Below are positions 33 to 27,230 of a stretch of 57,762 nucleotides of DNA, piece by piece (the stretch's first letter is position 1; every line of letters starts with the position of its first letter). The translations under genes and the position numbers were made by a program. Source of the DNA: Ectocarpus siliculosus (lineage: Eukaryota > Sar > Phaeophyceae > Ectocarpales > Ectocarpaceae); contig FN649727.1 of assembly GCA_000310025.1 (NCBI GenBank), forward strand, positions 6,860,796 through 6,918,557, written 5' to 3'. A model generated the notes under the pieces. It saw nothing but the letters and a program-made list of their open reading frames with translations. It searched no databases and had not been told where the DNA came from.

Positions 33-310
33 CCCTCTCCTTCCGCCTCCGCCGAAGAACATGCTAAAGATGTCCTCCGGGGTCTGTCCGCCCGCTCCGC
101 CCTCGCTCTCGACACCCTCCTTGCCGTACTTGTCGTACAGCTTGCGCTTCTCGGGGTCGGACAGCACCTCGTAGGCCATGGTGATCTCCTTGAACACCTC
201 GGGGTCTCCGCCCTTGTCCGGGTGGTTCTACGAAGAGAAGAGCGACAAGAGGGGGCAAGGGTTAGGGTTGTGTGGCCATTGGAACAATCTCCACAGCCGT
301 AGGCACGAAC

Positions 311-344
<34 letters not shown>

Positions 345-1967
345 TCAAAAAGAGGGGGGTGGCCTGCGGTGTCCTAAACATAAAAATGGCGTTGAATGGG
401 GTAGACACTCTGCTGCCGTGGATTCCAGAAAAACAGCGTTTTGCGTTTCTTCACAAGGGGGGGTTGATTGAGGTGATTAACTCTGCACACATTTGGAGAG
501 GTATTTAGCCGGGGGGCGCAGGGTTATTTTCAAATCTAAGACCTCTGCTCGGTGGCATACAGCAGCTTAATCTTGTCAGCATGACGCCATCGAATGAGCA
601 AGTCGGTTCGATGATACTTCGTACGCAAAACGCCATTGCGAGACGGAACTTCACCCTCGGCTCCAAGGAAATGTCGAATTCGGGAGAGCGGGGGTGGCTC
701 GTCGCCCTACATACTTCATATTTTCAACACAGGATTTTTGGAAATCACACCTCCTAGGATAAGCCGCCGTTTCTCAAGACTTCCGCACTCATGCGAGGTG
801 GTAATGTTCGGTTTCCCGGCTTTGTTGGTGTAAAGGCAGCTCACAGGGCATTTCCTTGCACTATGCCGTATTACGTACATACGGCCAGCTGTCGTAACAT
901 ATATAGACGACCATTTTGCTTGGTATGTCGAGATGGATACATACAGAGGTGACGCGGGGGCAGTTGAGCGAGACCGCCTGCGACGGTACGGAAGCATTCG
1001 TGCTGCCGGCGGTGGGGGCGGCTGTCCCGCAAGCGGAGAGAATGAAATCTCCGCCGCCGTTTCTGATGATGTACAGCTGTTCCCGTGATACATACGCGCC
1101 TCCCGCATACTGCTGTATGTAACGCCGAAAACTCCGGTTTGAATCCAAAACCGTACGACAACACAAGGCGTGTTCCAACACAATAACCCTGTGGTTGGCT
1201 TGCACGCTGGCTGTTCCAGTGACAGCGCGCTAGCCAGAAGTCGGGAGAGTGAATGGTCGTCACTGATATGTCAACAGCGCGGCATAAATACGAGGAGCCC
1301 CACCTGGTGGGACTACGCTGGGCACAAAATCTACGCCGGTGAAACAGATTTGGTTTTGAAAATCCACCGCACACGCTGCCTTGCTTTGAATACAGCCGTA
1401 CACCCGGGTCACGTTTAGGCACAGAAACGACGGTGGACTTGGTTATCGTGCTCTTGTGTGACATCCTACGCGGAATACCTTCCGGCTCTGTGGACCAAAA
1501 GAGGTGCGGGGGAGGGGAACTGGCACCTCGTTTCGGAACGGACGGTAGAGATTTTCTCGCCAACCTGTGATCACAGACATGATGCAATCATCGGCCCGTC
1601 GTCATCAGCGACACAACACCGCCTGACGAAAAAAGAAGACAAAAATAAAGCACCCGACGTAAAACACAAACCGCAGGGAAAAGACAGGTGGGACAGGGAT
1701 AGAGACAGACAACCAGCGAAGCGTCCGCCGAAACCGTCATTGAAAGCAGTCACAGCCACGCGCGGGTAGAGGACACACCTTGAGTGCGAGTTTCCGGTAG
1801 GCCTTCTTGATCTCGTTCTCCGAGGCATCCTTCTCGATCCCGAGGATCTGGTACAGCTCGGTCGTGTCCACGTCCGCAGGGGGACCTCGACGGCCGCCGC
1901 CGCCGCCGCCCTCACCCCCGGGCATGCCGGCAAATTGCTCGAACGGCGAGCCTCCTCCGAAAAACAT
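33..1967 (-). CDS. Type I DnaJ (Hsp40, DNAJA-like) co-chaperone, 5' part only
   Basis: Two exons are visible on the minus strand: 1779-1967 (from ATG at 1967, ends LALK, donor GTGTGT) and 33-227 (starts NHPDKGG, donor GTAAGA at 32). Both are phase 0 and together give 128 residues. They encode a short Gly-rich leader ([12 protein letters not shown]) and a full J-domain: [27 protein letters not shown], then the HPD motif (about residues 65-67), then [26 protein letters not shown], and the start of a Gly-rich linker. J-domains stimulate Hsp70 ATPase. The HPDKGGDP wording resembles cytosolic class A DnaJs such as plant J3 and Ydj1 (family knowledge); the zinc-finger and substrate-binding domains expected for that class would lie beyond position 1. 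The gene diverges from Argonaute. The intron (228-1778) holds a CAG repeat at about 315-341. J-domain identity is very secure; the subclass is inferred. Confidence 0.9.
315..341. repeat. CAG trinucleotide microsatellite in DnaJ intron
   Basis: An uninterrupted run of about nine CAG (plus strand; CTG on the gene strand) lies in the single visible DnaJ intron. It is not coding in the reconstructed gene. Confidence 0.85.
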
Positions 1968-2527
1968 GGTCGTCCGAAAGCAGCAGAGCCTGGCCGGAAG
2001 CTATTTTTTTCTCGAAGGCCTTGGGTGCGGATGGATGGAAGAGGATGCGTGGCCAGACGACGCGAGGTTCTTCTAGAAAAAGGCCGCGAAGCACACCGCC
2101 TTCGTCTTGGTCGTGGGCTTGATAGTGTGGCGCTTCGACAGCTAAAGCGTCGGCGAAGTACCCGTTAGACGCAAAATACGTATAGGGGTGAGACAAAGAT
2201 GGCTTGTGCGAGATGGTGAAACGTGTCGGCGAGACGCGAGGGTGTGTGTACCACACTGCGCGAGTCGACGGAGAGACCCCCCCCCCCCCCCCCCAAGATA
2301 GATGAAATACCTCAAGTACAAGGTATGTACCAATCTCATGAAAAACGTAAATCTCGCGGAGCCCCCTAGCAAACCCTCCACTTGTTGTGGGCACACACCC
2401 GAGCGAGAGAGCACTGCTGTGAGCACACCTCTCAACAACAAGCGCAGGAAAGAGAGAGAAAAGCCAAACGCCAAGCGTAGAGCGGAGAAATACATAGATA
2501 GAAAGAGAAATAAGCAGAGGTGCTAAG
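1968..2527. promoter_or_regulatory. Shared upstream region of divergent DnaJ and Argonaute
   Basis: These 560 bp separate two head-to-head start codons (DnaJ ATG at 1967 on minus, Argonaute ATG at 2528 on plus). Both 5' UTRs and promoters must lie here unless there are upstream non-coding exons. A run of C (about 2277-2294) lies near the middle and a purine-rich stretch (2440-2520) precedes the Argonaute start. I see no convincing TATA box, so the regulatory call rests on position only. Confidence 0.4.
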
Positions 2528-5500
2528 ATGTCTTCCCGTGGCGGCGGTCGTGGTGGGAGAGGACGAGGAGATTTTAGGGGTGGAGGACGAGGAGGAGGAG
2601 GAGGCGGCCGTGGTGGGGACTCGTACAGGGGTGGCGGGCGCGGCGGAGGGAGAGGAGGAGGTCGAGGAGATTTCCGGGGCGGTGGGCGTGGAGGGGGCAG
2701 AGGCGGTGGAGGGGGGCGGTTCGGCGGAGCGCAAGAGGATGCCCGCTTCCGAAACGTTCCTCGGGTGCACGAGTGAGTTTATCTCGATCGGTTTGACTGT
2801 CTGCCGTCTGCTGTGTGTCCAAGCAACAGACCCAAGATCCAAGCAGAACAAGAAAAAGGTCGTGCGTCCTCTTGCACGCTGTTTTTCTCAGTTGTTTTGG
2901 TACACAGCAGTGCATAGCTGCGACGAAGAGCTTTTCATGTGTTGTATCTTGGTGGCGTGCCGGCTCTCACGGTCGGGTTGCAGACCGTCGACGCTGCTGT
3001 GGCGCCTTCTGAAAGTAATGCACGCACTGCTGTCGTCGCATAGACTATATGAACGAACGTTGGCCCTCTCCCCGCCCTACAGCATTGTATCACACCCACA
3101 GCTGGCTCTTTTTCTCCCACAACTTTCTCTTCGGGTACATCTACCACAAAATGCATATGGTTGCGCAACGCCCAGTGATGACATCAATAACCACCCCACT
3201 GAACGGCATCGCGCTCTCGTGTGCTGCTCGTTCTCTCGCACCGCAATATATACCTGGCGCCTGTGTTTGCACAATCTCAGCTCTGCTGCTGTGTCTGTAA
3301 AAAATCAACATAATTGATGACCCCGTGATCTCATCACAGCAGTGAGAGAGCCTCTCTCCAGTCTGTGACGAGATCGATCGATGATCCGGGAAGCGTGATT
3401 GCCGAACAAGGTTACTGCTCTAGCGAACGCCGCGGACAAATTAAAAGCACCCCCCGCCGCCGTTCCTTGTTCCTGCCTCAGTCAGGGAGGAGCTGCGGCA
3501 TGCGCCCGCAATCCGTCTCGTGATACCATTTTTGTCCGCTACACATGCATCCATGTTACCGTCTACATGTACGTTGCGAAGGAAACAACTGCCAACACAC
3601 GAAAACACCGCCGTGCGGTGGAGTGGGTGGTGTGCGTCCATCCGTTCAACCATCTTTGGTTGTGCCGTTACGTACGACGTGCTGGAAAGCCGTGGTGCCA
3701 ATCTACTGCTGTTGTTGTCCATCATCCTGCCCACCTATATGAATCATACTGTACCCCCCTTTCGTTGCCAACGATGGACAGCAGCTTGCGGGACGTCGCC
3801 CGTCCTTTGTTTTATATTAGTGGCATGACAAAAAAAATGCTCTGATTTTCTCTATAAGGTCAAAGAGGCAAAACGTAAGATTTCCCGTCGTTTCTTTCTC
3901 TCTAGGTACGCATAGCATTCATGCTACCTTTCATCTATGCACCCGTGCATACATTTAAGATACACACACAAAGAGTAAGCTGCTACCGCGAATTTTCATG
4001 TCGCGGCACTTCAACATGAGTGATGACTACACTGGAGGTGGCGCTTACGTGAGTGGACCTCTGCCGGTGCACTGGCACACAATCCTTTCGGGGCGTCGTT
4101 GCAGATGACCTGGGTCGAGTAGACAGCAGTGCGGTGATGTTTTACCTGCGGGCAGGATGAGTGTTGAGAAAGCTTCTCCCGCTCGGAGTATACATCTCCG
4201 CGCTACGTATTGATCTACAGTACCCGAGACCCAAGTGGTCACCTTGGACGCCCCGAAGGGATTGTCACAACAGCGGTAGGAGTGTGCGGAACTGGCAGAG
4301 CTTACGGTGGTTCAGGCACGTATCGTCACCTCCAGCAGCTAGTAACATGAATCATTGCGTCTGCAAGTTTGCAGGTCCCTTTTCCCCCTCCGCGTGCGCG
4401 TGACGTGTCAACTGAAAAACCGTTTCGTTTCGAAATGGTCTTGCTGTACACCGCCACCAGACGCGCAACAGAGCTGAGTGTGCGGGTGCACATCCTCTCA
4501 TACATTTTCCCTCCATGACTACCTGTTGAAATTTGACTGTTGCTCACGCTACCGTTCCCCCTCGTCGCCACTACCACTCTCGGTGTGCCTTCCCCCGAAC
4601 CTGCTGCCGCTGCTGCTGCTGCTGCTGCTGTTTTTCGCCTTCACCAGGATCCCCATCGTGAACGTACCCGGAAAGCCACTCCCCCCCCCAGCGCCCGTCA
4701 GCAGGACCGCCCTCGCGGAAACCCCTGTGAGTCGCGGGCGCTGTGCTATGCTGTTGGCACTTTGATCGGTGTGCGGGGTCGATATCCATCGACAGCTGGT
4801 AGCTTTTCGCTGGTAGTTTCCCTGTTTTTCAGGTGTTCGGTTTCACGTCTGTTTGCCTCTTTCTCTCCCCGCCCCCCTCTTCTCCTTCAAGTTTCGGCGA
4901 AGTCATTCTGGTATTGGGTGCTTGCGCGTGCCGCACGCTTTAGTTCGTGAGGGCCGACTGGACAACTTGGCCGGTTGTTCGCCTTCTGTTTCAACCCGCT
5001 TGTTTTGTTTTTTTTTCCTCCTCCTCCGCCGCCGCGCTTTTTTGCAGGTTGACGACATCATCCTCCCGCACCGGCCGAACTACGGCAAGATGGGCAAGCA
5101 GGTGGTGGTGACGGCCAACCACTACAAGGCGGACTACAACAGCAAGCAGCTGCTGTACCAGTACGACGTCAGCCTCGAGGGCTTCGAGAAGACCGCGCTG
5201 GTGAGTTTAGATTTTATTTGCCTTCTGCTCGTTTCAACACCGCCGTCGTCTTTCTTCGGCGCGAGGGCTTTTTCAAATTGCAGTGACCGTTTTCACCTGA
5301 AACCCCAACACACCCTCGTTTGTTGGCGCCACCGAAGAGGTATTATTCCGTTTCGATCGCGTGACTGCTGTTGCTGCTGTAACTACGAGTCGACCTCCCG
5401 CGTCGAAGGTATCCTATTCCGACGGCAGTGTCGAGCGTTTCCGATGATTTGCGGTCGTGGTGTTGTCTTGAGCGCGCAAGTGGTGTTGATGTAAGGGATT

Positions 5501-8500
5501 GATGCCATCCGAGGTTAAGGTCCTGGTGTACCTTACGGCAGTATTGAAACAGTGCCCAGAGATGTACGTACTGCTACATCGTTGGGGAGGAAAATGCGCC
5601 CGCGAGCTCTGGTGGTGCCGGGCTTTGCGGCGTGCACCGGTCAGCGTTGGCTTGGTTGGCTTCGACCGACTCGAGGTCTTGCAAAATCAAACGAACCGCT
5701 AAACACAAACACCAACACACAGTGAGTACGATAGTGGCATATACCTCTCGTCACATGATGATGCAAAAGCCGACGTCTATGTATCACCGAAACACTTGTC
5801 AAGAATCAACGTTTCAGGTTTGCCCCCCTGTTCACCCCCACGGACTCCTCGCCAACCCCGCTCCTCCAAAAAACAGCCCGCGGCCAAGCTCCGCGCCATC
5901 TTCCAGAAGTTCAAGGAGCAGCACTCCGCCTCTTCCCTCGGAGGCATCGCCTTCACCTACGACGGCCGCTCGGTCATGATCACGGCGAGGCCGCTGCCCT
6001 TCCCCGCAGAGGGCGCGTCTTTCGTGGTGGTATTCGAGCCGGCCACCGAGAAGAGGGAGGCGAACAACTTCACCGTCATCCTCAAGCAGGTGGCGCAGCG
6101 GAGGCTCGCCGACCTGGCCGTCTTCTTCAGCGGGGTGAGTTTTTTTTTTTTTTGTGGCGTTGTGTTGTTTTTGTCCTTAACGACGGTACCTGGTGTCTCT
6201 CTCTCTCTCTCTCTCTCTCTACAACACCCCAACCTCACCCCCAGCCCCTCTCTCTATCCCCTCCTTAACGCTCGTCTTGCACCCCCCCCCCGCCACCGCG
6301 CGCGCGCGCTTATGTTCATCAATACACCAGCAAACGAGCCAGAACGCGTACGACTGCATCACGGCACTGGACATCTCGCTCCGGCACGCCCCCTCGATGA
6401 AGCTCACGTGCGTCGGCCGCAGCTTCTTCACGCCTGACATGCCCTCTCCCATCTCTGGGGGTGCGGAGGTGTGGCTCGGCTACTACCAGTCCCTCAGGGC
6501 CACGCAGGCCGGGCTCACGCTCAACGTGGACATGAGCGCGATGGCCTTCGTGCGGAGCATGCCCATGGTGAGAGGTACAGGGCTGGAGACGTTAGGTGTA
6601 CGCACGCGCCCGGCAAAGCCGTTTCAGAGATGGTCGAGGCGGCATTGAAGGGTATATAAACCTTTGTATCGTTTGTTTTGCTCACGCACGTACTTGTTGG
6701 TTCCCTTACTCCTCAGCATGCATCCGACCTATGCAAAGGAGAATGACCTCGTGTTTGCGGGCTTGAAGTCATGCCCCTTGCCGATGGGTTGCTCTAACGG
6801 GTGTCGTGTTCTTTGATGATTTTTCCAATGAGCGCTTCTCGACCTAGTACTTGGAACGGTGCTTTATGAGGGGTGCGTGGTGGCTTGCGGTCAGACGCCA
6901 CGGAGCCCCCTTAGTTTTCGCTCTCGGCGGTGGTACCATTGCAACGGAAGCATCCTGCGCACTACCCCAACGGCTACCACCGCCGCACACACACACTCAC
7001 TCACTCACCGCACCCGCGCCCCGCTTTTCCGTCTCGCGTTCTTCTCCAGATGGACTTCGTGTGCGAGCTGCTAGGCGTCCGTGACCCCGGTCAACTCAGC
7101 CGCGGCATCCGGCCGTACGACCGCCGCAAGCTGGAGACAGCCCTCAAGGGGGTCAACGTCGAGGTCACGCACCGAAAGTCCAACCGGCAGGTATGGCGGC
7201 GCGTCTGCTACTGCTGTGTCTTTGCTTGTTCGTTGGTTGGTTGTCATGTCCGTGCGCGAGAGTTTGCTCTCTCGTATTTTTTCCCTTATTTTTTGTCGTC
7301 CATGTTGGATACTTTCTTCCACGTCGATTTCTCACGGAAACGGGAATATGCTGTGTTGCCAAAAAGGGTCATGCATGGGTGGCCAACGTCCGAGGTAACA
7401 AGACGAGTAATAATGAGTTTAACGCCCCCCCTACCCCCCCTGTTTATCTTCTCAGTACCGCGTGAGCGCGCTGTCGAAGATCGGGGCGGACCAGCTGACC
7501 TTCCCTGACCAGGAGAGCGGTAGGGACGAGATCGTCGCCAGGTACTTCGGCGAGAAGTACTTCAAGCTCAGGGTGAGGATCAGATGGAAGAACAAGAGAG
7601 AGAGAAAGAGAGAGAGAGAGAGTAGACAAAATATGAAGAGAAAACAATAAGACACTGGTAGGTGGTGGATGGGGAAAGTTGAACACCTCGTATCTGCGTG
7701 CTTGTGTGAGAGAGGGGTACCGACTGCGGCAGGAGTGCGAGACAACGCCGATCTTTTCGCAGGAAGCCGACACCCACACTCACACGGGCGGCCATCAGGT
7801 TTATGTGTGTTGCTTAGCACATATGATGTAGACGCATCATCTTCCTGCTCACATTCATTACTTGCTTCCCTCCCTCCCTCCCGCCCTCCCTCGCATGCTT
7901 CCCTCGCCGGGCCGAAACAGTACCCGTCCCTGCCGTGCGTGCGCATCGGGTCTGCGTCCAAGCACAACTACATCCCCATGGAAGTGTGCCAGGTATGTAC
8001 CACACCCATGTGTCCTGCCGCTGATTTGGGAGAGGCGTGCAGGTTTTAACATGAGTACAATGTAGAGGTACGAGATACCTGCTGTGTTGCACATTCCCGG
8101 GTTCCTTACGTTGCGGTACCTGTGGTGGGGTTTTAACGCAATCGTGATTGTGGTGTCTATTTTCTTGTCGAGGTTCGGGAGGTAGTCCTGCCTACTTGAC
8201 GTGCGATTTCGTTTTGTCGACCAACAAACGCGTTCATCCACACCTTGTTTGCTCGCCTACCTCCATGCCTCTAGGTGGGTAGTTGCTCCGCGATATATTT
8301 TGTTGCTGTGTGTGGAGGCGACCTTGAAAAAACCGGTCCCCATTTCCGCCAGGTCTGCCGTGAATGATTGATTCCCTCCTTTCTCGTAAATGGCGTGTTT
8401 TTTTTTAATTTGCGTGCGTCGTAAGTGTTTGGTCGACGAGTGCATACACCCTCTCCCCTCAACTCCCGCCTTGACTTAATTGCCTCTTGCGCCCCGTCCT

Positions 8501-9302
8501 CTTGCGTACCTATCTGGCTTGCTTGCTTGCTCGCTTGCTTGCTTGCTTGGCGCTTGATTGGCTTTGATATCGTGCAGATCGCCCAGGGACAGAAGGTGGC
8601 CAAGCTCGACGAGAAGCAGACGGCGGACATGATCAAGATCACGTGCCAGAGGCCGGACGTCCGCCAGGGCGCCATCCACCAACAGTTTAACAACATCAAC
8701 GGTACGCGTGCAAACGTTTTTCGTTGCCACCCGGAGTGCTGTGGTGGTACACAGAAGCCGAAATCAAACCATGAGGCTAGCAGCGCTCGCTGCAAACCAT
8801 CGTTGTACCTTCAAAGCCGATACTAATAGGCTCGCCGTGCGCACTGCTAACCCTCTACCTATAGGAGACGATATCAAACCTTGTGTCTCGTCGTCTAATG
8901 GTTTGGTGTCGGCTTCTATAGGTACGGGGGGTTGCAGCGAGCGCTGGGTACGGTAGCGCCTGCGTTGTCTGTTGTAGTATCGTAGCAAGCCCGTTCGGCA
9001 TTCGGCACGTCGATGTGTGCAGTTTAACAACGCCAGAGATTTGTGGAAGCGCGGGGGCGGCGATAGTTTGCAATTGCATACGTGCATCCAATGGCAGCGA
9101 CGGTATGCCCGGCGCTCGCGAGGTAGAGAGAGAGAAAAAGAGAAAGAGAGCTACCAAGCGTGCGAGAAACGAGGTCTTCCGTGTGCGTGACGCAACCCAT
9201 ATATTTTGGAGCTGCTTTGCAGCTGCGCCAGCTGCAAAATAGATAGGTTGCGGCACCCCATTGATTGTCTCATTGCTCGCGCGCAGGGTAGCTCTCTGTC
9301 TC

Positions 9303-9341
<39 letters not shown>

Positions 9342-12300
9342 GCTTGCAGGCACCGAGGGCCATTGGACGCACGCATGTAATTGCAAACTATCGCCGCCAC
9401 CATGCTTCCACAAATCCTGCGTCGCGCCGTGCTGCTGGCGCTAACCTTACCTCATACGTGTTTCGTCCTATTTATCATATACCTCGCGTTAATATTAGAC
9501 GCCAAGCGCGGTACGGGGAAGCTACCGTATGTATTGCGTTTCCCATATCGGTTTATCCCCACAAGCACCCGGTGTTGGGGATCCATGCAGTGGGACTGTG
9601 CGAGATGCTGTAGGGAAGAGCTGTTCATGGACATGTCGGGTATTGTCAACCTTGCTGGGTTTCTTTTTTTGTCCCGCCAAACAACACGCATACCGTACCG
9701 TATACCATTTATTATGGGTATCCACTTATCCCGCACAACATTTGCGTTGACGTTGGCCTGCTGGGTCTGCAGCCGACATGAACAAGAGCTGCGAGCAGTT
9801 CGGGATCCGCATCACCAACAAGCAGATCCAGACCCAGGCTCGGATCCTCCCCCCGCCCTGCATCCAGTACAACAAGGCGAGGGGGCGTTGCGAGCGGTTT
9901 CCCTGCGTGCGTGTTTCAATTTTGTTTTGTCGCGGAAAGATGGGTAAGGATAAGGATGGTGTGATGTTGAGTCTGAAAGGTAGGTGGCGTGAAGATCCCC
10001 CAAAGCAACAGAGAAGCGAAATTGCTCAGACACGTGTTAGCACATGTCGTTTGCATAGATGTTGTTAATTTGCTTTGGTTGGATTCCTATGGTGCTTTCT
10101 GATCGGTGTATGTGTTCCTACAACCGTTTCCTGGTCTTGAATTTTAAGTACTACTGCCTGTTGGGCCAACACATTCATTTGACTCGGGAAAAACTGGTGA
10201 ACTTGTTTCGAACCTCTTGAATGAAAAACAGGCTGGGCGGCAGCAGACCGAGCAGCCGCAGTGCGGCTCCTGGAACCTCCGCGACAAGAAGATGTTCGAC
10301 AACAAGAAGCTGGTCAGCTGGGCGGTTGTCTGCTTCACGCAGGAGCGAGACCTGCAGCTACAGGTGTGCTTGTTTTTTTTTTATTATTATTATTATCAGC
10401 ATCTACCGCGCTAACCTGCAGACCAGTCGAAAAATGTCAGTCTCAGTGCGGTTGAAAACAGGAATGCTTCTGAATGCCATGATCTGGGACCCTCCATGAA
10501 GGGTCCATGGGTGTGTGCTTGTGTGGCATTGGTGCGTTTAACGACCTACCTGGTACTCTGTGTTTGTTGTTGCAATCGTCCAAGGGCTCGTGGCAAGCTT
10601 GGTGTTTGTTTTTGGCTCCACTTGGCCCTCTACTCGATTGCCATACATTTTCTGTCGGTTCCCTCCAAACAGCCGTGTGCCCCTCGGCCTTACCCCCTCC
10701 CCTCTCTGTTGCACATTGGTTGCTGCCGCTCTGCCGTCTGCTGCTGACCCGATCACCCCGCTTCCGTCTCTCACATTGATTGCTGCGCAACTTGGCTTTG
10801 CCATCCTTGCTATTGCTGACCCCATTTGATGACGCTGCCGCAGGGGGCGGAGCACTTCGTGTCGGAGCTAGTGAAGGTCATGGGCACCCACGGGATGGAC
10901 GTCAGCCCCGAAGCGAGGAGGCCGCCGATCCTCATGGCGGACAGCGTGGCGGCCAACAACCAGCGCGTGGACGACGCCACCTACGCCAGGAACGCCCTCA
11001 CGGCCGCCAGGGACGCAGCCAGGTTGGTTTTTTAGGCCGACTAGCCAAGCGTCATCGTCATGTCGTCGCCGCTCGAGTTTTTTTTGGTAGTATTTTTGTG
11101 AAAAAATCTGGGTTTTTTTAGGTCTTGTTTTTGTTGCAAACACGCAACGAATTCACCTCCATCAACAGATGAAAGATTCCAGGATAAACTACAATGGTTG
11201 TTGTGGTCACTCAATGAGTTTGTCCTTGTCTCGTACTCTGGAACAGTGTCGGGTGTCCAGTAGGTGACCGGCCAAACCCCTTGGTGCTATGTGTGCGGCC
11301 TTTTTTCAGGAACCACGTTCGCTGTAGCTTTACTGCTGTTTGTGATGGTGGATTCCTCGAGGAAGTATGGGGTTCTTTTGCTCTTGGTGTGATACCTTTT
11401 TTGCAATTTTCGGAAATTAGTTCGATCACGACCGCCAGCTGATCCCGCTTCTCTCTTTGCTATAAGGTGAACCTTTTGGTGTGGTTAATTTTTTCGTCCA
11501 TTCCAGGAAGAAGTTCAAGGTGGACTGCCAGCTGATCCTGGTGCCGAAGCCCACCCAAGACTCGAAGGACTACGGCGAGATCAAGCTCGCTTCGGACACC
11601 GTGCTCGGTATCCCGAGCCAGGTGTGTTTCATCTTGTTCTTTTTTTTTTCTTCTTGATTTCCTCGTGCTTTTTTTTCATTGGTCCGTGCTTGTTGGTGGG
11701 GTTGATGATTTGAGTCGTTGTTTCGTCAGCTCAAATGTATCTTGGTCGCTTTTGTTTGTTACGGGCGCAGTGCTTGTTGCATCAGGACAGTGCTTGTTGG
11801 AAGCTCCTTATTTGTTACCGTTTTCGTCTACCACCCATTGCGACAGTATTGCCTATTCGTTGACCCCCCTCCCATTCCCTGCTTCGTGTGTGTTGCTGCT
11901 GGCTTCGATGCCGTACTCTCGAAAATATATCGGCAACAACCACAACAACAACAGTGCGTGTTGCTGAAGCACGTCCACACGGCGAAGATCCAGTACCTGG
12001 CGAACCTTTGCCTCAAAATCAACGCCAAGCTCGGCGGCCGCAACGCCGTGCCGAGGGACAAGCTTCCCTTCGTGCAAGACGTGAGTCTTCGTCGGCTTGG
12101 GGGAAAAAGAAGCTATGTACATACTCAACGAACAAGATGGAGGGTTTTAAATTAGCAATGGACCAATGGTAGCTTTCGTTTTTATTTTGGTAAAGACGCC
12201 GATGAGACTTTCCTTGTAAGACACATGCCCAAAATGGCGTGCAATACTGCTGTAGGACGTGTGGGAGGTTTTGTTTGCTCGGAACAATCGGTGGTACGGC

Positions 12301-12544
12301 GGGGGCTGCAGGCCATCGCTTGACACAACTATGCAGCTCCCCCGCGCCCCCTCGAAAGATAAATCTTTTTTTCTGTCTGCATTTGTTAACAGGTCTTCCG
12401 CGTCTCTTGACACATATCCCGGTCCGTTGTCCCCCTCTGACTCCATCTACCTCCCTCCTTCTCACCAATACTGTTGTTGCCCCCTCCTTCTTTCTGGTTC
12501 TCTCTGCCTGTCTCTCTTCCTCTCTCTCTTTCTCTCTCTCTTAT

Positions 12545-12577
<33 letters not shown>

Positions 12578-15500
12578 CTCTCTCCCTCTCTCCCTCCCTT
12601 TGTCCCGTCAACGCTTTGCCTTTGGGGGTCTTGTTCTTCTCTCTCGTGAAAACCAGGCTCCCACGATCGTCTTCGGCGCCGACGTGAACCACCCCGGCGC
12701 CGGGAACGTGTCCAAGCCGTCGATCGCCGCCGTCGTGGCCAGCATGGACCGATGGGTCTCGAGGCACGGGTCGTGCGTCGCGGTGCAGGAGCACCGGAAG
12801 GAGGTTATCCAGGTGAGACGGATGGGTGGGATAGGATGCGGGTGTAGAACAGGATCGTGTGGTCAAAATGGATGGGAGTGTACCGTAGTGCAGAGACACC
12901 GGAAGGGAGTTATCCAGGTGAGATGGAAGAGTGGGATGGGATGGGGTTGTGGAACGGGATGGTGTTGTCGAAACGGACGGGGTCCGGGAAGGTGGGGGTC
13001 AGATGGAAGGGTGGGATGGGATGGGATAGGGTTGTGGAACGGTGAAAGCACACCGGAAGGAGGTTACTTGTCCCCGTGAGATGGAAGATGGGAGTGTGGA
13101 ATGAGGTAGTGCAACGGGATGGTGTCGTCGAAATGGAAGGTTGTACCTTGCAAAGACACCGGAAGGAGGATAGTGGGGTTACCGTAGAGTGTGCAGGATG
13201 GGGCTGTGGAACGAAGAGTGTTGTCGGGATGGATGGGGGATGTACCTCGTGTAGAAACGTCGGAAGGAGGTTAGCCGGGTTGTCGTGGGGTGCGTGGAAA
13301 GGCTTCGTGTTGTGAGATGTGCGGGTGGGGCAGAATTTCGTTGTGCTGGAGACAAGGAAAGGAGAATATCCCGGTCAGATGGAACGATGGAATGTTATGG
13401 TTTTTTTTTGCGGGATGGGGTGGAGTTGTCGAATAGAAGTGAATTGGGATTTTTTGCGTGTAGAAGCACCGGAAGGTGGTTGTCCAGGTCAAAATATGGA
13501 GTGGGACGGGACGATGATGTTGTGGGATGGTCCTCAGATCGCATGAACGTCGGATTACCTTTTTATATCGCCGGATACACAAAGGGCTTTGGCGGTTATG
13601 TTCATGGCTACCATAACAATCGAATCAGGTAATAGCCCTTGCGGGGCGTTGTCAAGAAGTCGTTAGCCAACGAAACAAAACCCCAAGATATCGCAAGTCA
13701 CCAACCGCGATCCCCGGGCGTGTTGATGCCCCAACAAACCATGTCGTGCAGGACCTGGCGTCGATGGTGAAGAACCTGCTGATCTCGTTCTACCGCGTCA
13801 ACAACGCCAAGCCTGCCCGCATCATCTTCTTCCGCGACGGCGTTAGCGAGGGGCAGTTCCGGGAGGTCCTCCGCTACGAGGTGAGGAGATGTTGTTGTTG
13901 TTGTTGTTGTTGTTGTCGTTGCCGTGGTGGTTGTTGGTGAGAAGACTGTTGTTGTGTTCGCGCCTTTTCTGTAAATCTCTGATGTGTGCCGGAGTGAAGT
14001 TCGTGTGCTTTGTTCACCATGTCTCTTTGTGTGTGTTGGATTTGACGTTATTGCTGTGAAAAGTGCCGACCTGCTGAAGTTTCTGGTGCTGGTGCTCCTC
14101 TCGCTGTTGTTCGTGAAGAGTTTACCGGGTTTGATGCTTTTTGGCAATTATCGTCTCCTCTTTGCTTCGGTGGTGTGGTGTGCCGCCCGACCTTTGCTGT
14201 TTGTTCGGTTTTTCTGCGCAAAGAACGCCGTTCCTCCGTGGATATTTCTTTCGTTCGTTATGCCTCGTCCTCGTTAAGTCGACTGACGACGCCCTGAACG
14301 AATTTCTTGTTTTTCGGCGCAATCCAATGCCAATGCCAATGCCAATGCCGTTGTGATTCGCGACGACGACAAAGGTCCGAGCGATCGAGCAGGCGTGCGC
14401 GGCCTTGGAGGTGGGTTACCGTCCTACCATCACCTTCATCGTCGTACAGAAGCGCCACCACACCCGCCTCTTCCAGCCCAACAGGTGGGGTCAGTCAGAA
14501 CGACGGTCGAAAAACGAAAGCTCAGCCAGCGGCTGAGTGCAGCTGTAGGGAAGACACGAATCTGATCACCGAAACGCACTTGTAGGCGTTTTAGTTTTTA
14601 CGCGAGGGTGGTGCGTCGCTGTGGTAGGGCCAGTTAGGACAACCGTCAAAAAATCGAAGACGTAATAAGCGCTCGAGTTCAGCTGTAGGGAAGAAAACGG
14701 ACAAGACAGATGTACGATCACCGACACGTTTTGCGAAAGTGTGGAGGTGGAGGTGGAGGGTCGCCGTGGTTGCGACTGTGGCTACAATGTACAGCTTGCT
14801 GTCGCTGTCGTCGCCTGCTGTCAATCACTCGTATCGGGGGGTGCCCGGATATTGATTCGTTCTCGACATTGTTGTGTCCGTGGGTTTTTCTCCGTTGTGC
14901 AGGGCACATTTTGAGCCCCTCATTTTGACACAGCAGTCAGTCAGTCCCTGATACATTTAATGTATCTCTCTCTTGTCCTTCCTTGCACCCCCCAGTTGTA
15001 GTGAGGAACGATTGGCCACCGGCGATCGGTCCTTTAGGAACAGTGCTCCACCTCCTCGAGGATGCGTGGTCAATAGTCCAACCGCTATGGCATGCTAAAC
15101 ATGAAAGAGCACCCCCCCCTCCCCCCCCCCGTTTTTTTGCTTCCTCTTGCTGCAGGGATGACCAGGACAAGTCCGGCAACGTGTTCCCCGGGACCGTGGT
15201 GGAGACTGGCATCTGCCACCCCATGGAGTGGGACTTCTACCTCATGTCCCACGGAGGCCTGCAGGGAACCTCTCGCCCGGCCAAGTACCACGTGCTCTGG
15301 GACGGTGAGAAGAGCTGGCAGCGGCGGGCCGGCCGCGCTTCATGCATATTTTGTTTGTGTGCAGGACCCCCCCCCTCTGTCTAACTCTTCATTTGAGGGT
15401 GCCCCGCTGTAGTTAGCCTCCTTTATGTTTTGGTTTGGTTTGCTGGTTGGTGACCGCGGGCATAGTCCAAAATTCTAGCGCAAGGTGTCGCAAACATATG

Positions 15501-16848
15501 GTGCTTGACCTACGCTGCTCCCCGCCGCCAGCGATTTTATGAACTGTTGGGGACGATGACAGCACAGAACCGTCTGGCCAAAGGCTCGGTTTTGGAGAAA
15601 TCCTTTGGGTTTGCCGTGTTCATGTGTGGAGTTCCAGTGTTGCCCTTACTGCTGTGCGGCAAAGCGTCAAATAATATCATGTACATGACGTCGCTTCTTC
15701 TACCGAGGGCGACAGCTCGCGAAAGTTGGCCACCAACAGAACCGAGAGACAGGGCTTTCGCAGTAGCAACCGATCGGGATGGCGTCATAAACTTTCGAGT
15801 TGAGAGAATAATCACGGTGTAGTAGCTGCCCTCTTGATGACAGCAGTATTTGATCGACCGCTCTCCACTCGCGTGTATTCTGCTTACCGTACCGTACTGC
15901 CCCCCCGCCCCGCCCCCCTTTCCTCTACCGTGTCAAACTTTTTTTTTCGTTTTTCAGAGAACGCGTTCGACTCGGACTCTCTCCAGCTGCTGTGCTACCA
16001 GTGAGTCCAGTCGACGGGTAGTCGTTGTTTTAGCTTGGTGTAGCGGTGCGGTGTGTTGATATCGTCTCGAACCGAAACATGTACCTGGTGTAACGCTTTG
16101 GATTGTGTTGTTTTTGTGTTTCTTTGTCTTTTGAGTGTTTTCTGCAGCGCGGGTATGTCATGTTGTAGTTGTTGTTGTCCGTTCCAAATGTTTTACAGCC
16201 TTACTCGTTATTCTCCTTGGCGCACAACCGAGTTTTCTGTTCACGATGCCCCCTCTGGCTTGGTTCTAGTACACCACAGCAGTTTTGTTCGACACTCGGT
16301 TCCCCGACGCTTGCCTCGCTTTTCACACCGCCGTCCTCCCCCTCCTGCTCTCCTTCCCTTCCGCTCTGCTGCAGCCTGTGCTTCATGTACTGCCGGTGCA
16401 CCCGCAGCGTGTCCATCCCGCCGGCGGTGTACTACGCCCACCTGGTCGCTTTCCGCGCCCAGTTCTTCGTCAACGTGAGTGTGGCCATATGCGTAGACGA
16501 TCGATCGCGAAGTGATTTCGCCCCCCATTTGGTTTTCCATAATAATGCGGCGTAACATCTAGAGTGAAACGCCCAGCGGGCGTCTGCACACGCCTCCCAG
16601 GTGTTGCTATGTTTTTGTTTTGTGAAGACGTGCCAGGTGGTAATACCGGTGGATGTGATGCAGTGCCGAGCACAACCCCGCCAACTTTTTTTTTATTTTT
16701 ATTTTTCAACGAGCAGGTGGGAGACGACTCCTCCTCCGAGTCGTCCTCAGTCGTGCAAGGCAGGGACGGCGGCGCCAGGGAGATCGACTGGGCCCGCTGC
16801 TTCAGCTCGGTGCACCAGAGCCTGACCAACGTCATGTACTTCGTCTGA
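2528..16848 (+). CDS. AGO: Argonaute (AGO clade), complete, 21 exons, 962 aa
   Basis: Small-RNA-guided silencing endonuclease. Exons: 2528-2772, 4648-4726, 5048-5200, 5877-6134, 6343-6567, 7050-7190, 7456-7572, 7921-7992, 8578-8701, 9773-9876, 10232-10363, 10844-11022, 11507-11621, 11955-12080, 12657-12812, 13752-13880, 14375-14484, 15156-15304, 15958-16000, 16375-16474, 16717-16848. Every junction keeps phase and the sum is 2889 nt. Residues 1-75 are RGG/GRG-rich. N and L1 domains start near [14 protein letters not shown] (about 320-440) has [16 protein letters not shown] and IPMEVCQIAQGQ. MID has the 5'-phosphate pocket Y632, K636, Q648, K669, spaced as in human AGO2. PIWI carries the full tetrad D699 (FGADVNHP), E739 (HRKEVIQ), D771 ([10 protein letters not shown]) and H908 (YYAHLVAF), spaced 40/32/137 against 40/32/138 in AGO2. 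The protein ends NVMYFV, as usual for the family, so it should be slicer-competent. Intron 10 is GC-AG. This is the only Argonaute in the window. Confidence 0.96.
6196..6221. repeat. CT microsatellite, Argonaute intron 4
   Basis: A (CT)n tract upstream of exon 5, part of a pyrimidine-rich intron end. A similar long CT tract lies in intron 14 (about 12500-12600), and a TTGC/CTTG tetranucleotide run at about 8515-8550 lies in intron 8. Confidence 0.7.
8778..8950. repeat. Inverted repeat H1 in Argonaute intron 9
   Basis: The left arm (about 8778-8826) and right arm (about 8902-8950) are imperfect reverse complements. Matching blocks include CAGCGCTCGCTGCAA (left) against TTGCAGCGAGCGCTG (right), GTACCT against AGGTAC, and AAGCCGA against TCGGCTT. 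The loop is about 75 bp. It lies wholly inside intron 9, so the AGO pre-mRNA could fold it into a hairpin. It could be a MITE remnant. Confidence 0.75.
9038..9417. repeat. Long inverted repeat H2 in Argonaute intron 9
   Basis: An imperfect palindrome of about 380 bp. Outer arms 9038-9103 and 9354-9417 share, in reverse complement, GCCATTGGA, AATTGCAAACTATCGCCGCC and GCTTCCACAAATC, with few mismatches, mostly transitions. Inner arms also pair: GGTAGCTCTCT near 9288 with AGAGAGCTACC at 9146-9156, and CAGCTGCAAAATA near 9230 with TATTTTGGAGCTG near 9203. The centre is near 9225. The right arm has gained a (CT)n expansion (9313-9341). The transcript would form a stem of roughly 180 bp. Confidence 0.85.
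12792..13540. repeat. Decayed ~100-bp tandem array in Argonaute intron 15
   Basis: The block CACCGGAAGGAGGTTATCC, which is the last coding part of exon 15 and runs into its 5' splice site, recurs in degraded form at about 12897, 13051, 13157, 13257, 13350 and 13467 after the original at 12792. Each copy is followed by sequence like GGTGAGATGG or GGTCAGATGG and then a G-rich GGGATGGGATG stretch. Spacings are about 105, 154, 106, 100, 93 and 117 bp. The array therefore consists of duplicated exon end plus donor plus early intron. Confidence 0.85.
13889..13915. repeat. TTG trinucleotide microsatellite, Argonaute intron 16
   Basis: A GTT/TTG repeat begins only eight bases after the exon 16 donor (GTGAGG at 13881). 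It is intronic. Confidence 0.8.
14485..14770. repeat. Tandem duplication at the start of Argonaute intron 17
   Basis: Two diverged units of about 139 bp. Unit 1 starts at the exon 17 donor (GTGGGGTCAGTCAGAACGAC, 14485) and unit 2 at 14624 (GTAGGGCCAGTTAGGACAAC). Both then carry GTCGAAAAA/GTCAAAAAA, the shared block CAGCTGTAGGGAAGA (about 14540 and 14684), GATCACCGA/CACG, and end in a GAGGGT-G-CG-CG-TGTGG stretch. Intronic. Confidence 0.75.
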
Positions 16849-24689: not shown

Positions 24690-27230
24690 CCATGTTGTCG
24701 TCGTAATATTTTTTGACGATCAGGAGATGATAGGAAAACATCCCCGTGTTTCCTAACGTAACACTTAAGGTTCCCAGTGACCACATGCACGGAAAGAGGG
24801 GCTGCCCTGAGCGATCTGTAAGGCACGCTGCCGCCACCGCGACAGCAGCATCACACCTTTTCGCCTCTCTGCCTGCCCCTTCAGCACCCAAGGCTTCGCA
24901 CCGGAGAGCTGTAGTCGATGAAACCGAGCCCTACTGCTGTCGACCACCCAGCAGATACAACGGCAGAGAACCTAGACACTATTAGACACACAGGACACGA
25001 ACGCCCGGATCCATGGAAAGATAAGCCCCCAAGAAAAAGCTGCACCTACTGGGCGATATTTTGTGAGCTGCGACAGCACGCACAAGCAGTGAAATCAGCA
25101 GCTTCAGCAGCTTCCTTCCTTCGTGTGGAGTCGCCCGCTGCTGCGCTTGGCAAGTTCAGTTCAAGAGTTGTTGACAAGACAGCAGCAGTTGCCGTGGACT
25201 CGATCCCACTCGATCCGGTCGCCTTGACGGCGGCCTCGCAGCGAGTCGAGGGCGTTGTCCGAAAGGGGGACGGCGAAACGGCCAAAGTAAAACTCTCCCC
25301 GCCCCTCACGCCAAGTGAGGGAGAAGCGCGGCGAAGACTTTACAAGAGATAACGCCTTCGTATCAAGAAACGAGGGCGCGAGATCTCCTTGCGATGGCTT
25401 CGCGCCGCTCCCTCACCTGGCGTGAGGGGCGGGGGTAATAAGAGTTTTCGTTTTTCCAGTTCCGCTGTCCCCCTTCTTGAGCGCCCTCGACTGCTGTCAT
25501 GTCCAGCGTCACGGTGGTTGGATCGGAGCAGTGTGGCCGAAGATGTGGCCCGATCGTGCTTGCCAAGTTGAGAGCTACGAGCAAAGTGACCATCTCCGGA
25601 ACAGGTTTACCACAAGCCGAAGACGCGCCAGGGCTTATCGACAACTCGTACCGCCGTCTCGTCAACAAGGAGGCCGTGAAGGATACATATGTGGTGCGAG
25701 AAATACGGCGACGACAATTTGCCTCTCTGCGAGTGCGCACACTTTGTTGTGCCTGCTGATGATGTTGTCGTCTGCCCGACGGGCTCGTTTTGAAGACATG
25801 AGATTTGTTGCTGACTAGCCCTATTGGTCATCGGCGTGTGTGTTGCCTTGCTCCGGATATGTGCACCGATCGATGTCATCGGGGACCGGCAGACGCACGA
25901 GAACAAAAAATATGACGCTACCGTCCTCGAGACGAGGTTGCATGCGAAACCTCACGGAGCTTTGCGCTACATAGGGCCGTTGGCATGTGTACGCGCTGCT
26001 TGCTCACTGCTGGGAGCACGGGTCCTCGTTGGGCTCGTGGACAGTATCGCGCAGCCCAGGAACCCAACACCCGTGCACGATTCAACGCAAGCAATACACG
26101 TTCTTGCACTATCGGCACCGCAACTATGTATGATTGACTACCACGCAGTATTTGCTCCTCTGCCTTGGAGGTTTCCTCCTCTCCCAGTCGGTACGGTGCA
26201 GTCCCTGTGTCTCGTCTGCTCAAAACTCTTGCTATACGCCGCGATGCATCCTTGGGAGCGGTCGTGGAACGAAACAAGAGCTGGGGTGAAAAAGCCTCCG
26301 CCGGCCGTTGTTGTAGGATACGTCAACCGATTGGTCAATGGGTGGCCGCTTCGGGGGGAGGCCTGCAACGGCGCCAACTTAGCCGATTCAGGGGGGCTCC
26401 GCACGTCGTAAGTTACGACGGACGCCCCACCGTGTCGCCTACGTTGCCGCTGCAATCGGACCGTCCCTCGAACTGGCCGCTCGTCGACCAGTCGGTTGAT
26501 GCGTCCTGGAACATCCGCGGGTGATTTTTCGCCGCCGTTCTCGGTGCTTTCCACGATCGCTCCCTAGGATGCGTCGCGCGTCAAGCAAGAGTGCAGTAAG
26601 CAGACTAGACGCAGAGATTGTACTGACCGAGGGAGAGGGCGAGAGGTTGAGTCGGCCTAGCGCAATAGAAAAAGGAAGACGATACGCAGGGATTGTACCG
26701 ACATCGAGAAGGGGAGGAGGAGTATTTACTGAACAGTCACGACAGAATAGTAGCAAATACTGCAGTGCTACAATGTTCTAGCCCCGTCGACATACACAGC
26801 TGCAGTGCCGAGAGTGGCAAGACGTCCGTTGCTTGCATTAGCCGTACGCGGGTGTTGTTCCTGGGCTGCGCGATCCAGGGTACGTCGTTTTCTTGACGTG
26901 CCGCCCGAAGCAGAAGCCCGTACACGTCTGTGTTTCTGCGTGCGTTCCGTTGTATCTGCTGGGTGGTCGACAGCAGGAGTGCATGGTTTCATTGAATACA
27001 GGCTCTCGAGCACCAAGCCTTTGGGTTCTCAAGGCGCGGAGATGGTGAACGGGTGTGATACTGTTGTCTGTGGTGGCGTAGCGTGCCTTGCGTAGCGCTC
27101 AGGGCAGCCTCCCTTTCCGTGCGCATGTGTTCAGTGGGAAGCTTAAGTTCCTACCCAGTTGAAAACCCGGGGATGGTTTAATTTCATCCCCTGGGTGTTA
27201 AATACGGTGTCAGGATCATCTACAACACAC
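24690..27230. mobile_element. Large inverted-repeat (foldback/long-TIR) element with nested insertion
   Basis: Right arm 27230 down to about 26414 matches, in reverse complement, a left arm split into about 24690-24975 and 26043-26410. Shared blocks include GGCTGCCCTGAGCG (24800s and 27100s), CAGCAGATACAACGG (24950s and 26950s), ATCGCGCAGCCCAGGAAC (26046 and 26870s), GGGAGCG-TCGTGGAA (26255 and 26560s) and TCAACCGA-TGGTC (26320 and 26490s). The centre is the perfect palindrome CGTCGTAAGTTACGACG (26404-26420). The left arm is interrupted by about 1.07 kb (24975-26043). The right arm contains a partial internal duplication (two GTACAATC/GTACAATCTCTGCGT blocks). No transposase was recognised, so it would be non-autonomous. 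The right end lies about 50 bp from the 3' end of tRNA-Gly. Ends are approximate and no clear target duplication was found. Confidence 0.75.
25297..25436. repeat. Hairpin inside the nested insertion
   Basis: Arms of about 30 bp: CCCCGCCCCTCACGCCA at 25297-25313 and its reverse complement TGGCGTGAGGGGCGGGG at 25418-25434, extended by AGTGAGGGAG / CTCCCTCACC. The loop is about 80 bp. It sits within the segment that splits the left arm of the foldback element, which suggests a second, smaller element. Confidence 0.75.

Follow-up and report, generated by a model that had tools for sequence, protein, structure and literature searches.

The window considered here, a stretch of 57,762 nucleotides of the Ectocarpus siliculosus genome with a G+C content of 53%, carries an Argonaute (AGO) gene with long introns, one of which holds two foldbacks, H1 and H2, that are unrelated to each other (Table 1). 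We read the gene as beginning at the ATG of an RG-rich N-terminus and ending with the last Piwi match; ArgoL1 and ArgoMid also match within it, PAZ matches in joined exon pieces, and Piwi follows downstream. The intron at 8702-9772, which the initial annotation numbers as intron 9, separates an exon ending in QQFNNIN from one beginning with ADMNKSCEQ. ArgoL2 matches the exon on its 3' side (E = 7.7e-10), the exon on its 5' side (8578-8700) on its own matches no Pfam family, and once the exon pieces are joined the ArgoL2 match spans the junction. The GT...AG ends, this match across the junction, and the arms and folds described below thus bear out the initial annotation, which had placed two inverted repeats in an Argonaute intron. 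Upstream of AGO and divergent from it, a minus-strand ORF at about 1737-2000 carries a stretch that we take to be DnaJ-like. Six Piwi (PF02171) matches, the best-scoring candidates, were listed across the 189-Mb genome, and because all six fall inside this gene, it appears to be the sole AGO locus of the genome among the Piwi matches listed; a single AGO is reported for Ectocarpus and for five other named brown algae (PMC12867755). RNase III profile matches are found at two genomic places.

Table 1. Features of the Argonaute gene, its linker-2 intron and related loci. Positions are those of the window unless another locus (L) is named.
Feature	Position	Strand	Basis or remark
Argonaute gene	2528..16468	+	ORFs; Piwi, ArgoL1, PAZ, ArgoL2 and ArgoMid matches; exon borders partly modelled
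AGO intron, linker-2 region	8702..9772	+	GT at 8702, AG at 9771-9772; flanking exon frames
H1 hairpin	about 8753-8946		a ~75-bp palindromic repeat, present as a partial copy and a full, diverged one
H1 repeat copy A	8753..8787	+	left arm and centre; right arm not recognisable; perfect 20-nt half-site
H1 repeat copy B	8859..8921	.	complete diverged palindrome; aligns to the L031 copy with a score of 43
H1 outer arm, 5' side	8781..8803	+	87% complementary to 8924-8946
H1 outer arm, 3' side	8924..8946	+	pairs with 8781-8803
H2 foldback	9038..9416	+	379 nt; self-reverse-complement alignment, fold
H2 outer arm, 5' side	9038..9095	+	90% complementary to 9359-9416
H2 outer arm, 3' side	9359..9416	+	90% complementary to 9038-9095
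H2 inner part	9096..9358	+	GA-rich tract facing CT-rich tract, inner arms, apical loop near 9222
Hypothetical candidate 21-nt small RNA	9378..9398	+	5'-U, all 21 bases paired in predicted fold
Other large foldbacks	L037 237-1171; L058 211-798, 1636-2243; L051 2170-2523; L039 58-311		L037 strongest (score 162)
DNA transposon	L073 (C6:3785800-3791420), 98-5541		DDE_1; Tc5-type DNA-binding match below cut-off; stretch reads N

H2 is the stronger of the two structures. Aligned with its own reverse complement, it is 71% identical over the alignment, and its inverted-repeat score of 73 compares with a best of 14-17 per shuffled window (10 dinucleotide shuffles). The outer arms, 58 nt each, are 90% complementary, just as the initial annotation had estimated, and further in a GA-rich tract at about 9120-9150 lies opposite a CT-rich tract at about 9292-9341. 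Computational folding, which had been put forward as a check, gave -227.9 kcal/mol for 9030-9425 against -138 +/- 5.9 in 100 dinucleotide shuffles (z = -15.2), none of which folded as well. The predicted fold contains 154 base pairs, with a longest uninterrupted helix of 24, and the earlier description of a near-continuous stem of about 180 bp, while right as to a strong foldback, was thus generous.

H1, on the other hand, is a much weaker hairpin, since the score of its core inverted repeat, 17.5, barely exceeds that of shuffled windows (best 14-17). The fold of 8745-8960 reaches -90.0 against -68.1 +/- 4.3 (z = -5.1), and none of 200 shuffles does as well; apart from the outer arms, 8753-8775 can pair with 8895-8917 (87%) and 8851-8880 with 8900-8929 (80%). 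The inverted repeat annotated at 8778-8950 is therefore real, but its repeat content begins earlier, at 8753. As judged from its sequence, H1 is largely the debris of a dispersed palindromic repeat, of which it holds about one and a half copies together with short outer arms. Copy A aligns locally with a copy at locus L031 with a score of 55, and the score of the copy B segment (43) stands against a maximum of 24 in 300 shuffles. The half-site AGAAGCCGAAATCAAACCAT occurs at 499 places in the 189-Mb genome at no more than 2 mismatches (248 forward, 251 reverse), whereas its reversed control occurs at none on either strand. A 236-base H1 query returned three scoring places including H1 itself, probably because that search skips common words. 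The form of the repeat, seen in 30 loci, one of which is the window, is a palindrome of some 75 bp, its ends frequently marked by TATA. Outside the window, 25 loci that do not overlap were examined, 23 of them drawn from the half-site search and two from a 650-nt search. Both orientations of the half-site lie within the central 1 kb (at no more than 4 mismatches) in 18 of these loci, and three or more half-sites are present in five, so that side-by-side copies such as those in H1 are not rare. A palindromic repeat family, with sites in the hundreds, is a further outcome of the analysis.

A flank resembling AAGTTAGTCGTGGG(G)TTCG recurs at several copies of this repeat, and copies are sometimes paired (loci L003, L004, L013-L042); the shared flank suggests that the repeat is part of some larger composite or has a common context of insertion. 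Two half-sites on contig C6 (L041, L042), separated by 5.5 kb, suggested the termini of a full-length element and hence a parent transposon of the repeat. We rejected this candidate: the stretch between them (L073) is a separate element of about 5.4 kb inserted in a repeat copy. It has terminal repeats of its own (CCGTATATGACACAAG...), matches DDE_1 (E = 2e-17) and sits between the GACTA and TAGTC of the palindrome copy with an apparent TA duplication.

The outer arms of H1 have a few bases in common with copy A and are otherwise not derived from the repeat. They were considered as a second repeat family and rejected as such: at no more than 2 mismatches the 18-mer at 8781-8798 matches at 16 places, of which H1 itself accounts for two, and the control matches at 12. 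GGTAC flanks 8751-8946, although a flanking repeat of at least 5 bp arises in 7.4% of 500 random placements, and no direct repeat of 4-12 bp borders copy B. The suggestion that H1 is a MITE insertion therefore holds in so far as H1 contains two copies of a dispersed palindromic repeat, and fails for the outer arms, which stay at the control level of the genome. What H1 shares with MITEs and short palindromic dispersed repeats is its copies of a palindrome of about 75 bp with hundreds of half-sites.

H2 differs from MITEs in having one copy found and no 4-12 bp duplication. Considered as a further copy of the H1 repeat, it was rejected (alignment score 13, where shuffles average 15). A 650-nt query matched its own locus, the reverse complement of that locus and two places corresponding to the H1 part, the H2 part thus finding its own locus and no second copy, although a DNA search of this kind may miss diverged copies, because a query with the foldback at 26178-26638 left its own reverse complement unreported. 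A 24-mer from the outer arm, searched genome-wide at no more than 3 mismatches, found the two H2 arms alone (control 0), and a pattern from the H2 termini found 7 places including both arms, against 10 for the reversed control. A search up to 4 bp from the ends gave no 4-12 bp direct repeat; GA and CT stand immediately outside the exact ends, and the inverted symmetry continues into the flanks (ACGC...GCGT). With one copy found and no such duplication, H2 is not one of many near-identical MITEs, and its annotation as a MITE insertion is not upheld. We infer that H2 probably goes back to an inverted duplication that arose locally long ago and has decayed since; it encloses a GA/CT microsatellite. 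One feature counts against this origin: the outer 58 nt, at 90%, are better kept than the inner part, which a decaying duplication by itself does not predict, the inner part being rich in microsatellite sequence and hard to align. It is very improbable, in our estimate, that H2 instead represents an old MITE family of which no other copy can still be recognised. Such an origin would agree with a compact foldback with matching ends, and with the adjoining repeat copies in H1, which indicate that the AGO intron accepts insertions. It would also agree with a pattern from the inner part of H2, which is found at five places genome-wide (control 1), two of them the arms and the other three at 2 mismatches each, two of these being identical to each other; but these three places are known as pattern matches alone, not as foldbacks. 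The outer sequence without a second copy, the terminal pattern at control level, the lack of a target-site duplication of 4-12 bp, the GA and CT beside the exact ends, and flanks that prolong the inverted symmetry, which is unexpected from an insertion, all speak against it.

Large foldbacks are not confined to this intron. Scored by one scheme throughout (self-comparison by blastn, with spans of at most 1 kb), the window contains three that reach at least 50, namely 26178-26638 (80.5), H2 (73) and 25211-25525 (52). The two others lie about 650 bases apart with self-complementarity of about 70%, and no other copy of 26178-26638 was found in a genome search. Outside the window, 177,837 bases yielded 15 foldbacks scoring at least 30, four at least 50 and two at least 70. 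For these three thresholds the counts were 2, 0 and 0 in 60 kb at fixed places, 4, 2 and 1 in 42 kb around 18-mer matches, and 9, 2 and 1 in 75.6 kb around H1-repeat matches, a group that leaves out seven loci overlapping others or the window. H2 is thus one of a class of large foldbacks that recur in the genome. At the pooled rate, a gene of 13.9 kb is expected to contain about 0.16 foldbacks of the strength of H2 and 0.31 at the threshold of 50, although 118 kb of this background was chosen by repeat or 18-mer matches and is not random. At that rate, the presence of H2 inside the AGO gene is a coincidence and not a remarkable one. The 60 kb without a foldback of at least 50 counts against the reading of H2 as one of a common class, since the true background could fall below the pooled rate.

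Complementarity to AGO itself was assessed with 21-mers from H1 and H2 (533 per strand) against the genomic region 2400-16700 with H1 and H2 masked, a comparison that sites across exon junctions escape. The best complementarity in the AGO region, with penalties of 1.0-2.0, came from CT/GA tracts that are apparently intronic. After removal of 21-mers with at least 18 purines or pyrimidines, which left 483 in the sense orientation, the best sense penalty was 3.5, from the edge of the GA tract, against 4.0 in reversed controls, and the best on the minus strand was 3.0 against 3.0, with the GA/CT tracts again supplying the leading matches. Matches in the AGO region that beat the controls are thus CT/GA-rich only. 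Nor do the arms of H2 show a bias toward changes that preserve pairing: on the transcribed strand their differences comprise 7 G-U against 8 A-C, a small count, alongside 23 transversions and 30 gap positions.

A criterion for miRNA precursors is the pairing of 15 nt or more of the miRNA with the opposite arm; another is that miRNA and miRNA* are both represented by reads, offset by 2 nt and with precisely placed 5' ends (PMC4513859). In the predicted fold H2 provides the pairing: 57 U-first 21-mers have at least 15 paired bases, and two have all 21. The pairing criterion discriminates little, because any long foldback would show as much. The genome-wide target search covered one of the 57 candidates, that at 9378-9398, and returned, at no more than 3 mismatches, the two H2 arms alone; an overlapping 24-mer gave the same outcome. 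A known RNA family was also sought for H2 and rejected. The Rfam matches to MIR533 (31.9 bits on the minus and 30.6 on the plus strand, gathering score 80) and MIR1437 (25.2, gathering score 168) lie far below gathering and are taken to be chance, probably arising from the GA/CT tract.

Taken together, the observed structure of both foldbacks, their copy number as far as the searches reach, the repeat identity of most of H1 and the similar foldbacks elsewhere lead us to a reading that we hold with good, though not full, confidence: one intron contains two unrelated foldbacks, H1 being mostly repeat debris and H2 a passive foldback, found once, of a recurring class. H2 would be transcribed passively with the AGO pre-mRNA and then removed with the intron. 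Were Dicer to reach it first, a mixture of small RNAs would be expected, as for other Ectocarpus palindromes, presumably without any special feedback on AGO. That H2 is diced is plausible by analogy with palindromes in Ectocarpus introns, which are a source of small RNAs. A part of the probability stays, mainly because established work makes such dicing plausible, with a clearly less likely alternative, namely that H2 already functions, or is beginning to function, as a small-RNA locus, a miRNA-like or siRNA hairpin whose products act on other genes via AGO, its location in the AGO gene being coincidental. Tarver et al. (2015) described 64 Ectocarpus miRNA loci, 75% of them in protein-coding genes and principally in introns, reported many loci in extensive palindromic regions that yield several small RNAs, with 65 "weak candidates" (67% of which are inside genes), and suggested genomic hairpins generally, and intronic ones especially, as a source of new miRNAs (PMC4513859). 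Bukhanets et al. (2026) found RISC-bound small RNAs to be enriched for introns (PMC12867755). With these reports, the 57 U-first 21-mers of H2 and a genome that has one AGO locus and two places with RNase III matches are in keeping with a small-RNA locus. Against it stand the 379 nt of H2, which exceed the mean Ectocarpus miRNA foldback of 170 nt (PMC4513859), the lack of another site for the one 21-mer checked genome-wide, arms without strand-specific pairing bias, and Rfam matches far below their gathering scores. The palindromes behind the weak candidates resemble H2 in spanning several hundred bases, often within a gene, in a genome that has a single AGO together with RNase III genes, but they were defined by small-RNA reads (PMC4513859), whereas H2 is described here from its sequence. 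A 21-nt sequence given for esi-MIR11352 finds no match in the genome at no more than 2 mismatches.

A much bolder proposal is that Dicer cutting of H2 (or H1) competes with AGO splicing, or that the small RNAs target AGO mRNA, and that the level of AGO is set in this way; we regard this as highly unlikely. Its appeal lies in the thermodynamic strength of H2, in the single AGO locus among the Piwi matches listed, which makes dosage control plausible, and in plant precedents for the position. The miRNA of the Arabidopsis DCL1 intron is miR838. According to a survey that prints this miRNA as both miR828 and miR838, DCL1 introns contain miRNA precursors in both Arabidopsis and Physcomitrella, and miR168 and, in moss, miR904 act on AGO1 mRNA (PMC3565333). 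The DCL1-intron precursors (Arabidopsis miR838, Physcomitrella miR1047) share with H2 a hairpin in an intron of a core small-RNA gene, but the host of H2 is AGO and not Dicer, no mature miRNA is known from it, and it is a long, imperfect foldback. With the feedback of miR168 on AGO1, or of miR904 in moss, the common point would be the level of AGO; there, however, the miRNA targets AGO1 mRNA (PMC3565333), whereas for H2 complementarity to AGO beats the reversed controls in CT/GA-rich 21-mers only. Such matches, the missing pairing bias and the similar foldbacks elsewhere in the window and the genome leave the miR168- or DCL1-like loop of the initial annotation without support beyond the place of the hairpin, and nothing except the position and strength of H2 favours autoregulation. 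The main text of PMC12867755 contains neither "hairpin" nor "autoregul-", its passage on feedback being concerned with miRNA stability. The available text of a 2025 review of macroalgal miRNAs (PMC12026948) says nothing of the AGO intron, and no report of an AGO feedback loop via an intronic hairpin was found in the openly accessible literature searched, supplements aside. The most specific form of the proposal, to which we give an equally slim chance, is that a Dicer cut in H2 before splicing would destroy the transcript, so that Dicer activity or small-RNA load would set the supply of AGO, as an independent counterpart of the DCL1-intron loop of plants. If dicing of H2 did affect AGO, it would constitute a new feedback loop, in a lineage that reportedly relies on a single AGO (PMC12867755). 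A foldback in an AGO gene is, in a genome with many foldbacks, weak evidence for feedback, and calls for caution.

A last observation concerns the 3' arm of H2, in which the CT tract is followed by GCTTGCAG (9292-9349) and resembles a 3' splice site. When folded, this stretch would partly pair with the GA tract. A cryptic exon is conceivable here, and under autoregulation the folded state could also serve as a splicing switch.
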